From the IMG/VR virus record IMGVR_UViG_3300028920_000191, positions 1 through 32,926 of that record: 32,926 nt of DNA. The stretch is one strand, 5' to 3'. Each line of letters opens with the position of its first letter. Position 1 is the stretch's first letter. Source of the stretch: a virus. The notes below the pieces were generated by a model, which was given only the letters and a program-made list of their open reading frames with translations, did not search any database and had not been told where the DNA came from. A program made the translations under genes and the position numbers. Of this stretch, positions 1 through 32,926 are shown one piece after another.

Positions 1-136
1 AACGAGGGTTAGATCCAGGTCCTTAATAACGTCGGCGTTCTTACAACGGGATACGACGAGCCAAGCATCGAGGTTATCGGCCTGAACCGCCGGACCAAAT
101 CATTACCTCTTTATTTGCAAATGGTAGGCCGAGGAT
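1..136. repeat. Left copy of 136-bp terminal overlap (circular genome)
   Basis: These 136 bases recur at 32791-32926 with a single difference: position 10 is T here and A at 32800. A helicase reading frame is continuous across the join. This is the usual signature of a circular or circularly permuted genome assembled as a linear contig, giving a unique length of 32,790 bp. The T creates an in-frame TAG in this copy where the other copy has AAG (Lys), so it is probably a contig-end error. Confidence 0.93.
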
Positions 137-627
137 CCAGGCCTTACCCGGGTAAAAAGGATTTTGTCGTCCTGGATATGGGCGCCAATTTTGAGGAGTT
201 TGGGACCTGGGACGAACCTCGCAGTATGTCAGAGGTGTTTTTTAACCCGGCCAAAGCAAAGGAAAAGCTCGACGCCGCGCCGGCGAAAGCTTGTAAAAAG
301 TGCGGAGCGATTAATTCGATCGCCGCCCGCGTTTGTATTGCTTGCGGAGAGGAGTTTCCAAAACCAAAGCCAACGGTCGAGGAGATCGTCGGCGCTCACT
401 TTGTTGAGGTTAAGCCCGAGGAGATCCTCCGACAAGATCCGAAAAACTGGACCTTTGAGGATATTCTCGTCGTTCAGAAAATCAAAGGATATAAAGACGG
501 TTGGCTTTATTATCAAATGGCCGAGAGGGGCGTCGCCTTCCTCCAGCAATATGCAAAGCTCAAAGGATACCGTCCCGGCTGGGTATATGCCACTTTGAAA
601 AGATTTAATAAATTGCCGGCTAGTTAA
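1..627 (+). CDS. SF2 DEAD/DEAH-type helicase, C-terminal part (continues from 31948-32926)
   Basis: This is the 3' part of the helicase that begins at 31948. When the ends are joined at the 136-bp overlap the protein is 489 aa. The segment holds helicase motif VI (QMVGRGSR, about residues 321-328) and then a four-cysteine zinc-ribbon-like motif, CxxC-x10-CxxC (C379, C382, C393, C396), before an unassigned C-terminal tail rich in aromatic residues. The likely role is ATP-driven DNA remodelling during phage replication or recombination. It lies 2 bp upstream of the RepA-like helicase gene, so the two are probably co-transcribed. The codon at 10-12 reads TAG here but AAG in the right-hand copy, which I treat as a sequence error at the contig end. 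Confidence 0.88.
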
Positions 628-629
628 CT

Positions 630-1796
630 ATGTCTTTACGCAAATCATTGGCCGAGGCTGAGGCTCTCACTCGCGGGAGTTTTGGCGATCAACCGGGAGA
701 GGTTGACCTCGGCGCCCTCAACCTGGTAACCGAAAAGCTCACCCAGGATCTCGCCCAGGATCTCCGATTTAATCCCGGTAAAGAGCCCGAAAAGCCGCGC
801 CCGGTTATCCGGATAAATGAGTCGATAATATCATCGACCGAAAATATAACGGTCATTTCGGGAGCCTCAAAGGTCGGTAAGTCCCGGCTTTTCTCGGCCC
901 TCATTTCAGGAACTTTCAAATATAACGAGCTCCTTAATCCGGATTTTATGGGGTTTAGCATCACCCAAAGCCCAGGGACCGCCGTCGTATATATCGACAC
1001 CGAGCAAAGCCGATATGACTGGTATCGGATATCCCGGTCCTGTTATCGGCGTGTTAACCTGGATAAGCCTCCGGCGTTTTTCGGATCTTATAACTTTCGA
1101 GGCCTCAGCTATGCAAAGCGGATCGCTGTTTTTGAGGAGGTCCTTAAAAAAGAGGCCGACGACTTTGGCGGGATCCACCTTATCGCCCTGGACGGGATCG
1201 CGGACTTTTGCAAGAGCCCAAACGACGAGGAGGAGAGTTTCGAGGTCGTCGATTGGATCGAGTCGATCGCTGTAAAATACCGGACGCCGGTCGTTACCAC
1301 CTTGCACCTAAACCCAGGCGAGCAAAGCGAGAAAATGAGGGGACACCTGGGGAGCCAAATAGAGCGGAAAGCGGAGTCCGTTTTCATATTGAAAAGAGAC
1401 GATAAGGCTCAGGGAGTAGAAATAAAGCCGAAAGTCCTCCGAAATTCAGGCGGAGAAGTTCCGGCGATACTTATAAAATGGGATCGGGATAAGCACGATT
1501 TCGTTTTTAGCGGAGAGATTAAGACCCAGGAGGCGCGCGACTATACGACCTTTAAGCCGGAGGAGCTGAGGGATCGGATTGACCAGGTTTTTTTAAAGGA
1601 CGAGGAGCTTAAGGGCGACGAGCTGAGGCTCGGGATAAAGATCGCTTTTGGTTACTCGAATAACTCGAAAATCGCCGAGGTTAAGGCTTGGCTTAAGCGG
1701 ATTAACTGGATCGCGACCAACGGCGAGCCGGCGACCTCTCCGAAATTACGATATATTAAAGGACCTCAATACTTAGACAATGGACCAGGATTTTAA
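630..1796 (+). CDS. RepA-like hexameric replicative helicase (RecA-fold/AAA_25 ATPase)
   Basis: The 388-aa product has a Walker A motif (GASKVGKS, residues 78-85), a conserved acidic strand (YIDTEQ, about 121-126), a Walker B motif (LIALDGIAD, 184-192) and the sensor segment TTLHLNPG followed by RGHLGSQIERKAES (about 223-250). That arrangement is typical of RepA/AAA_25 plasmid and phage helicases of the RecA fold. It probably unwinds DNA as a hexamer at the phage origin. The gene follows the SF2 helicase by 2 bp and overlaps the HNH gene by 17 bp, and a repeat-rich candidate origin lies 360 bp downstream. No primase domain is visible. Confidence 0.85.
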   Translation: MSLRKSLAEAEALTRGSFGDQPGEVDLGALNLVTEKLTQDLAQDLRFNPGKEPEKPRPVIRINESIISSTENITVISGASKVGKSRLFSALISGTFKYNELLNPDFMGFSITQSPGTAVVYIDTEQSRYDWYRISRSCYRRVNLDKPPAFFGSYNFRGLSYAKRIAVFEEVLKKEADDFGGIHLIALDGIADFCKSPNDEEESFEVVDWIESIAVKYRTPVVTTLHLNPGEQSEKMRGHLGSQIERKAESVFILKRDDKAQGVEIKPKVLRNSGGEVPAILIKWDRDKHDFVFSGEIKTQEARDYTTFKPEELRDRIDQVFLKDEELKGDELRLGIKIAFGYSNNSKIAEVKAWLKRINWIATNGEPATSPKLRYIKGPQYLDNGPGF

Positions 1797-2160
1797 AGGC
1801 GAAAAATGGCGACCGATTCCGGGCTTTTGCGCGGCTTACCAGGTCAGTAATTACGGCCGGATATACTCGGTAAGAAGGGGTAAAATGCTAAGCCCGGAGA
1901 TCCTAAAAAACAGGATGAAATTAATCTCCGGATATACCAGGGTAACCCTCTCAATCGACAATAATAGGACCCGGATTTTAGTCCACCGGGCGACGGCGAG
2001 GGCATGGGTCCCGGGTCGGACGGAGGACAAACACGTCGATCATATCGACAATAATCCGACTAATAACAGGGCCGAAAATCTGAGGTATTTAACGCCCGAG
2101 GAGAACCTCCGGCGGAGGCATTACCCACCAAAATCGGAGGACGACGACCTCCCTTTTTGA
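1780..2160 (+). CDS. NUMOD4-HNH endonuclease with SSB-like C-terminal tip
   Basis: The 126-aa protein starts with a NUMOD4 signature (EKWRPIPGF at about 8-16, YQVSNYGRIYS at 20-30). An HNH nuclease core follows: VHR at 68-70, HVDHIDNNPTNNRAENL at about 85-101 (H88 and N100 as core residues) and LRYLT. The last residues are SEDDDLPF, closely matching the acidic C-terminal tip of bacterial SSB (DFDDDIPF in E. coli), which docks replication and repair proteins. The gene sits directly between the replicative helicase and the candidate origin. It could be a homing-type endonuclease or a nicking enzyme recruited to replication; the tip makes the latter more interesting. It overlaps the upstream gene by 17 bp. 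Confidence 0.85.
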   Translation: MDQDFKGEKWRPIPGFCAAYQVSNYGRIYSVRRGKMLSPEILKNRMKLISGYTRVTLSIDNNRTRILVHRATARAWVPGRTEDKHVDHIDNNPTNNRAENLRYLTPEENLRRRHYPPKSEDDDLPF

Positions 2161-29180: not shown

Positions 29181-30134
29181 ATGAGTAACACAGAAAAGAC
29201 GACGGCCGTCTCTAAAGCCGCCACAACCACGCCGGGCGCTCCTTTGAGCGACGCAAAGCTTAAGCAATGGCTTAAGGATACCGGCAAAACCGCGAACATG
29301 AACGACGCCGACGTCTCGCTTTTTCTCGAGATCGCCAAAGCCTCCGGGCTTAATCCGTTTAAGCGCGAGATTCACGCCTCGAAATATTCAAAGGACGGTG
29401 AGCTCGCAATTATTACCGGTTACGAGGTTTATATCGACCGGGCGAACGCCTCCGAGCTTTTGAACGGCTGGAAGGTCGAAACCTCCGGCAAGGTCGCCGA
29501 TAATACCCTTAAGGCGACGCTTACTATTTATCGCAAGGATTGGAGCGAGCCCTTTATTTGGGATGCTTATTATGTCGAAAACGTCGGCCGCAAAAGGGAC
29601 GGATCAGTCAGTAAATTTTGGAAAACCCGCCCGGCCTTTATGCTTAAAAAGGTTTGTATCTCACAGGGTTTCCGCTTATGCTTTACCGAGGCCCTCGGGG
29701 GACTTCCTTACACTCGCGAGGAAATGGAGACCGGAGACGACGCTTATCGCGTCGAGACGCAAGACGTCGAGGTCCAGGAGGTTAATCCGGAGCCTAAAGC
29801 CCAGCAAAAACCAAAGGCGGCGCCGAAAACGATCGACGTATCGCCAAAAACCGAGGACAAGCCGCAAGGCCCTCCGGAGGCTGATTTTACCCAGGACCCG
29901 GATTATCAGGCGACCGAGGAGCAAATCCTCCAGCTTAAGGCTTTGATTAAAAGCCCTTATTTTGACGGGGTTAATAACAATGGAGTCGTTATGCGCGACG
30001 CGATCGTCTCGAAAATGAGCGAGGGACTGGATCGAATGACCGCCGAAAAATGGATTAAGTCAATGACTAAAAAGGTCGAGGATTACGAGCTCGCGCTCGC
30101 CTCTCAAAACAGCGCCGAGGGGGACGTTTTTTAA
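29181..30134 (+). CDS. bet: Bet/RecT-family single-strand annealing protein
   Basis: The 317-aa protein matches the phage Bet family: LFLEIAKASGLNPFKREIHASKYSKDG (about 46-73), LAIITGYEVYIDRANAS, and FWKTRPAFMLKKVCISQGFRLCF. The rest is a charged linker rich in Pro and Lys (about 200-245) and a C-terminal helical region, making it longer than lambda Bet. It should anneal complementary single strands during recombination-dependent replication. No partner exonuclease is clear; the VRR-NUC or HNH enzyme may supply the nuclease. The gene is preceded by a duplicated control element and probably leads the operon through to the helicase. Confidence 0.88.
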   Translation: MSNTEKTTAVSKAATTTPGAPLSDAKLKQWLKDTGKTANMNDADVSLFLEIAKASGLNPFKREIHASKYSKDGELAIITGYEVYIDRANASELLNGWKVETSGKVADNTLKATLTIYRKDWSEPFIWDAYYVENVGRKRDGSVSKFWKTRPAFMLKKVCISQGFRLCFTEALGGLPYTREEMETGDDAYRVETQDVEVQEVNPEPKAQQKPKAAPKTIDVSPKTEDKPQGPPEADFTQDPDYQATEEQILQLKALIKSPYFDGVNNNGVVMRDAIVSKMSEGLDRMTAEKWIKSMTKKVEDYELALASQNSAEGDVF

Positions 30135-31947: not shown

Positions 31948-32926
31948 ATGCTTAAGCTTAGACCTTACCAGAAGGAGGCTCGGAGTCTCCTCCGGGGACG
32001 GTTTCGGGCGGGCGCTCAGCGCGTTATTTTGTGCGCGCCTACCGGAGCCGGTAAAACCGTTATTTTCTCAGATATCGCAAAGCATACCAACGCCCTCGGC
32101 AATCGGATCCTTATCCTTACCGACCGGATCGAGCTCCTGAAACAGGGCTCCGGAGCGCTTTCAAAGGTAGGCCTCGAGGTCGAGGTTATCCAGGCCGGGC
32201 AAAAGATTGATAAAATCAATTACCAGGCGAGCGCCTTTATCGCAATGGTCGAGACGCTTAACCGGCGCCTCCAAAATCGCGTATTTAGGCGCTTGCTTGG
32301 TAAAATCGACCTCCTCATTATTGACGAGGCCCACAAAGGCAATTTTCGTAAAATATTCGACCACTTTCCGGACGCCTGGGTTATCGGAGCGACGGCGACG
32401 CCGATATCGGCCTCGATAAAGCACCCGCTCCGCGACTTTTACGACGATATTGTCGAAAACACCAGCATCCCGGAGCTCGTTAATAGCGGCTTTCTCGTCC
32501 CTTGTCGGACCTTTGCAGCAAAGGAAAAGCTCGAGGCTAAGGATCTCCGCGTTAAAAAGGGCGAATATACAGAGGAGAGCCAATTTAACTGGTTTGATAA
32601 AAAAGAGCATTATGCGGATATCGTCGATAAATACGAGTATTTCGCTAAGGGTAAAAAGGCCCTTATTTTTAATATCAATATTAAGCACTCTGAAAAGACG
32701 ACGCTCGCCTTTAAGGAGCGCGGGATCCGCTCCGCTCACCTGGACGGGACCACACCCAAAGGGCAAAGGGAGGAGATCCTCCGGGAGTTTAACGAGGGTA
32801 AGATCCAGGTCCTTAATAACGTCGGCGTTCTTACAACGGGATACGACGAGCCAAGCATCGAGGTTATCGGCCTGAACCGCCGGACCAAATCATTACCTCT
32901 TTATTTGCAAATGGTAGGCCGAGGAT
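31948..32926 (+). CDS. SF2 DEAD/DEAH-type helicase, N-terminal part (continues at 1-627)
   Basis: The gene starts at ATG 31948, 2 bp after the HTH gene, and runs off the right end, continuing at position 1 to a total of 489 aa. It has an N-terminal Q-like RPYQKEA motif (5-11), Walker A APTGAGKT (30-37), motif Ia near LTDRIELL, DEAH (126-129), motif III GATATP (147-152) and the second RecA domain (LIFNINIKHSEKT; NNVGVLTTGYDEP). The family includes phage helicases that unwind forked or branched DNA. A zinc-ribbon-like cysteine motif follows in the part at the left end. Confidence 0.9.
   Translation, partial: MLKLRPYQKEARSLLRGRFRAGAQRVILCAPTGAGKTVIFSDIAKHTNALGNRILILTDRIELLKQGSGALSKVGLEVEVIQAGQKIDKINYQASAFIAMVETLNRRLQNRVFRRLLGKIDLLIIDEAHKGNFRKIFDHFPDAWVIGATATPISASIKHPLRDFYDDIVENTSIPELVNSGFLVPCRTFAAKEKLEAKDLRVKKGEYTEESQFNWFDKKEHYADIVDKYEYFAKGKKALIFNINIKHSEKTTLAFKERGIRSAHLDGTTPKGQREEILREFNEGKIQVLNNVGVLTTGYDEPSIEVIGLNRRTKSLPLYLQMVGRG
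32791..32926. repeat. Right copy of 136-bp terminal overlap
   Basis: This is identical to positions 1-136 except for A at 32800 (T at 10). In this copy the helicase codon is AAG (Lys), so the reading frame stays open. The copy marks where the circular map was cut by assembly and should be removed when counting genome length. Confidence 0.93.

Follow-up and report, generated by a model that had tools for sequence, protein, structure and literature searches.

The locus examined here raises the question of why a phage endonuclease of the homing type should carry, directly before its stop codon, a peptide that resembles the C-terminal tip of bacterial SSB, and of what such a tip could do on a nuclease. 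The window, i.e., the whole stretch of DNA that was analyzed, comprises the 32,926 nucleotides of viral record IMGVR_UViG_3300028920_000191, and the gene in question and its parts are arranged as follows:

1780–2160, plus strand: HNH endonuclease gene (ORF list, Pfam and PHROG matches, AlphaFold model, PDB fold match)
1801–1953, plus strand: NUMOD4 motif, residues 8–58 (Pfam PF07463, 1.8e-12; 48.7 bits in the six-frame search)
1954–2118, plus strand: HNH catalytic core (homologue alignments)
2119–2133, plus strand: short linker HYPPK after the HNH core, the point where homologues run on into a C-terminal extension
2134–2157, plus strand: SSB-like tip SEDDDLPF, directly before the stop codon (sequence, low model confidence, rarity)

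The gene codes for a protein of 126 aa and shares its first 17 nt with the end of the ATPase gene that precedes it. The product had been described in the first-pass annotation as a NUMOD4-HNH protein terminating in SEDDDLPF, which both Pfam and the sequence bear out: the protein ends with ...RRRHYPPKSEDDDLPF at the stop codon, and the sequence leading to that codon is ...HYPPKSEDDDLPF. The NUMOD4 match is followed by an HNH_3 match (residues 81–111, 4.8e-10 in Pfam), both exceed the Pfam gathering scores, and they lie in the order NUMOD4 then HNH_3. Across 39 aligned homologues, H69, H88, N100, and L101 of the HNH core are invariant and N96 nearly so. The AlphaFold model has a mean pLDDT of 90 and is confident to the end of the core, while the last six residues have a pLDDT of 66, which suggests that the tip is a free flexible tail. 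The sole significant PDB match of the model is I-HmuI (1u3e; 1.3 Å rmsd over 106 columns), and with that fold the protein has neither an OB-fold ssDNA-binding domain nor a match to a Pfam SSB family. The phage protein thus has in common with I-HmuI and with the NUMOD4-HNH homing endonucleases of phrog_59 and phrog_959 the NUMOD4 and HNH_3 core, the fold and the intact catalytic residues, but it stops right after the core with EDDDLPF and lacks their C-terminal extension; by its core, it is classed as a truncated variant of this family. No group I intron or other Rfam family was found at gathering score. I-HmuI and the T4 Mob enzymes nick a single strand (PMC2988022), and we infer from this kinship that the phage protein is a free-standing NUMOD4-HNH nickase of the I-HmuI type.

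The tip shares with bacterial SSB-Ct (DFDDDIPF or DDDLPF) the acidic run, the hydrophobic residue, the Pro-Phe pair and the free carboxylate at the stop, and presumably also the flexibility of the end that bears it. The carrier is different from bacterial SSB, being a nuclease without an OB fold that presumably acts as one copy. The frequency with which such ends occur was estimated from 83,660 open octapeptides preceding all stop codons, in six frames, of viral loci not picked for a tip, using the patterns [DE]{2}[LIVMF]P[FWY] or [DE]{3}[LIVM]PF. Besides the window's own gene (L001, L239), six of the 83,660 octapeptides fit, every one of them at the end of a long real ORF and none in a spurious frame. 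The six ORFs code for a Pfam SSB (L252), a second SSB-type protein on a contig with a PF00436 match (L240), a DUF669 protein (L279), a DUF3127 protein (L208), an SSB-like protein of the Winoviridae assigned by position and sequence character without a Pfam match (L149), and a small protein without a family (L164). When ORFs were de-duplicated and restricted to non-overlapping ones, the rate was 4/1933. Such ends were also seen on a gp32-like protein, on a DNA polymerase A and on a Rep_OBD initiator, in a scan that is biased by its upstream motif. Judged from these sequences, acidic-[LIVMF]P[FWY] tails mostly mark DNA replication proteins and are almost diagnostic of SSB-type proteins.

The tip of the HNH protein could in principle be a chance C-terminus, as its uniqueness among 89 homologues would allow. 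This explanation is very unlikely because the six other tips all stand in real ORFs of SSB-like or replication type and no spurious frame among 83,660 stops produced one; at about 50 genes per phage, fewer than about 0.002 such cases would be expected. The earlier claim that the tip is SSB-like is therefore upheld, with the scan marking it as non-random. Other carriers came to light along the way. The Rep_OBD replication initiator of L082 (7296–8051) terminates in NNNNDDLPF and is thus an initiator with an SSB-type tip. Phage proteins of ~75 aa and unknown function with a DDIPF end occur in many contigs (L012, L015, L043, and similar loci); the one member tested, that of L043, gave no Pfam match, and these proteins could be small carriers of the SSB-type tip.

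Conservation of the tip up to the stop codon, on which the first-pass annotation had staked its reading, was not found among homologues. None of the 80 nearest viral homologues (from an alignment-based scan; 31–44% identity in the best segment) has a PF end, four of them having an acid-rich end of another kind, and none of nine further homologues, seven of which come from named phages, has the tip. Since it is absent from 89 of 89 homologues, the tip must have been acquired individually by this protein; on this comparison it is peculiar to the single protein and no property of the HNH family. The homologues also differ in what they have instead, as 77 of the 80 have more than 25 further residues after the matched core, an extension that the copy in the window lacks. 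Naturally short forms without the tip exist (3 of the 80, plus a plasmid copy ending in KQEE).

Several apparent counterparts were discarded. The plasmid HNH protein, which aligned up to residue 126, was rejected on its KQEE end; phage HNH matches whose alignments appeared to span the tip all extend beyond its position; and a single-sequence search for close HNH relatives returned weak, short matches only, the one that spanned the tip region being a tip-less HNH. A loose pattern (ENL plus tip) was rejected as a counter of HNH proteins, as it returned SSBs and other tip proteins rather than HNH. HNH-specific DNA patterns combined with the tip were then applied to 2.9 million viral contigs and 84,980 genomes; they span a subset of HNH sequence space (NNRxxNL and, in genomes, only the AAT codon start). 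Within this pattern subset, for which the rarity is valid, the 2.9 million viral contigs held one other true tip-bearing HNH, an HNH_3 protein on L131, and the 84,980 genomes held none, their matches being SSBs. The replication-module neighbours of ATPase homologues likewise included no tip-bearing HNH. The protein of L131 (IMGVR_UViG_3300028840_001718) resembles the phage HNH in its acidic-PF tip (...PESEEEVPF), but has no NUMOD4 Pfam match and a different sequence, and is thus an independent case. Its contig (45 kb) has no PF00436 match, and two contigs with a tip-less HNH do have ssb; this pairing of a tip-bearing HNH with the absence of ssb is suggestive, at two against two contigs that are possibly fragmentary.

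The absence of ssb can be judged on a nearly whole genome. Positions 1–136 and 32791–32926 form a direct repeat of 136 nt with one mismatch (position 10), and because both ends share it, the phage genome (about 32.8 kb) is considered practically complete, even if the class given to the record's ends might be read differently. No PF00436 SSB emerged from a six-frame search of the record, no SSB family from the unassigned early genes scanned (Pfam, PHROGs, NCBIfam), and nothing homologous to the SSB-like proteins that related phages encode was found in this genome. The initial statement that no phage SSB is recognizable thus stands for profile and homology searches: the phage has no detectable SSB, and an SSB of an undescribed family is possible. 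FPSV-S1 and lotta8, both phages of the Winoviridae, have a similar gene order (RadD/ResIII-type helicase, replication genes, VRR-NUC, portal). The portal is closest to those of Flavobacterium and Bacteroides phages, and the relatives of the phage point to Bacteroidota hosts; a search by ATPase and terminase returned no close phage relatives in viral contigs. Two Winoviridae phages code, on their minus strands, for SSB-like proteins that end in KKDDLPF (L149:1870–2532) and KKKLPF (L148:1594–2253); the two are apparently homologous, and the tip thus varies between relatives.

The same host assignment bears on the idea that the LPF end is a degradation signal that limits the nuclease. In some strains of S. 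mutans, ClpXP recognizes the DDDLPF/LPF end of SsbA as a degron, but in E. coli or other streptococci this end goes unrecognized (PMC5143411), and the phage relatives suggest Bacteroidota hosts, so that this explanation is barely credible.

Neighbouring genes in other phages suggest where the tip may have come from. The HNH gene of L252 touches a same-strand ssb gene that ends in SDDLPF, and in L240 HNH, RecT, and ssb lie within one module. The tip may have been taken from an adjacent ssb gene through a deletion, an economical origin as judged from these arrangements, for a deletion into ssb would explain the missing extension, the tip, and the absent ssb together. The same event could have left a functionless tip on a decaying or truncated selfish gene, the HNH gene having simply been joined to the 3′ end of ssb. 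That account draws on the same economy, a single event covering all three features, on the adjacency in L252 and the module in L240, and on the natural occurrence of short HNH forms (3/80 and the plasmid copy). It must contend with an intact frame, intact catalytic residues and a tip that is perfect to its last residue, when unselected sequence should lose the tip; moreover, a search with the site returned no similar DNA from phages, and the related phage L149 has its SSB-like gene elsewhere. We regard a mere relic as unlikely, though as an explanation with appreciable weight.

A functional tip could act in the immediate surroundings of the gene, which was first placed between a replicative helicase and a repeat-rich candidate origin:

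630–1796, plus strand: AAA_25 or DnaB-like ATPase, overlapping the HNH gene (Pfam, PHROG)
2160–2396, no strand assigned: iteron-like array without an obvious gene, with GGGATAAG sites and hairpins (site counts, folding)

This placement held for the array, with its eight GGGATAAG sites 3′ of the gene, but for the helicase it is plausible and unproven. The ATPase match is weak (Pfam AAA_25 at 1.9e-5, below the gathering score; PHROG at 5e-7), and the relatives of this protein are found in Flavobacterium and Olleya phages and in faecal phage contigs; from its sequence, a replicative helicase is plausible. The array is better marked: 8 of the 12 GGGATAAG sites of the window fall in 2162–2372, on both strands, against a whole-window expectation of 1.9, and the hairpins in the 236 bp 3′ of the HNH stop are far stronger than in shuffled sequence (z = -5.9). 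It includes a C8/G8 hairpin at 2265–2286 and a TTATCCC that resembles a DnaA box without matching it, and DNA similar to the region of the tip and array was not found in phages. Positions 2160–2396 are a reasonable candidate for an origin or a regulatory region, which position alone would link to the nuclease.

The HNH protein might accordingly nick the adjacent GGGATAAG array and use its tip to recruit the host replisome and start phage replication. The gene adjoins both a strongly iteron-like, hairpin-rich region and the ATPase gene, and a Rep_OBD initiator with a DDLPF tip is known from L082. Against such a role, the extension that would assist in reading a site is missing from this copy, the tip is unconserved, and support comes from the neighbourhood alone; furthermore, HNH homing nucleases normally cut homing-related sites, and it is usually a Rep or helicase-loader protein that binds an iteron array. 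We hold an origin nickase to be highly improbable.

Elsewhere in the genome, two genes code for proteins of the kinds that engage SSB tails:

29181–30134, plus strand: RecT/Bet-type annealing protein (Pfam RecT, 1.1e-25; TIGR01913 bet_lambda below cut-off)
31948–32925, plus strand: N-terminal part of a RadD-like SF2 helicase (best solved-structure match E. coli RadD, 5e-25)
1–627, plus strand: C-terminal part of the RadD-like helicase, with a CxxC-type zinc finger (continues across the record ends)

RecT proteins recognize the last seven residues of SSB (PMC10711431), and phage Sak4 needs the final six residues of the phage SSB in order to be loaded (PMC5928155); by analogy, the RecT of this phage is a candidate reader of an SSB-type tail. 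Three Arg form the SSB pocket of RadD, which binds the tip with a KD of about 5 µM (PMC10238739). In the alignment with the phage helicase, R21 is kept, R49 falls in an indel, and R145 is replaced by W. Because just one of the three pocket Arg is clearly kept, the pocket is not clearly preserved and the RadD-like helicase is not claimed as a reader of the tail. Helicases similar to it are found in Winoviridae phages.

The reading that we favour, tentatively, is that of an HNH nickase whose C-terminal module has been replaced by an SSB-type tip that recruits SSB-tail-binding proteins to the nick. As its family would lead one to expect, the HNH core would nick DNA; the flexible tail would then display the SSB-Ct signal at this site in the absence of a strand coated by SSB; proteins that have a pocket for SSB-Ct, such as the phage RecT and PriA, RecQ, RecG, RecO, or RadD of the host, would be attracted; and the nick would become a recombination or restart site, which would favour homing or phage recombination. 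Bringing such proteins to a nick is the most likely function of the tip, if it has any, and an origin role is no more likely than the recruitment of recombination functions, the phage RecT among them. Against this reading stand the absence of the tip from the 89 homologues, so that selection on it would have to be presumed, and the lack of a close phage relative among viral contigs. SSB acts as a tetramer with several tails; by comparison, binding through the lone tail of a nuclease that is probably a monomer would be weak, given the KD of RadD for the tip.

More far-reaching is the possibility, which we consider quite improbable, that the nickase mimics SSB in full, nicking the phage genome (possibly at the GGGATAAG array) while its tail replaces the missing SSB and loads RecT or the restart machinery of the host directly onto the nick. 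If this were true, the same device would have been reached twice, by unrelated HNH proteins whose contigs both lack a detectable PF00436 SSB.

Fusions of the Orf family (DUF968) with HNH (PMC4118853) also tie a phage HNH nuclease to recombination of an SSB-related kind; in those proteins HNH is joined to an Orf domain, whereas here the SSB signal stands on the HNH protein itself. How HNH homing endonucleases convert a nick into recombination is an outstanding question (PMC2988022). If the favoured reading is true, that question would be answered directly, in at least one case, by a nickase whose own tail bears the SSB recruitment signal.
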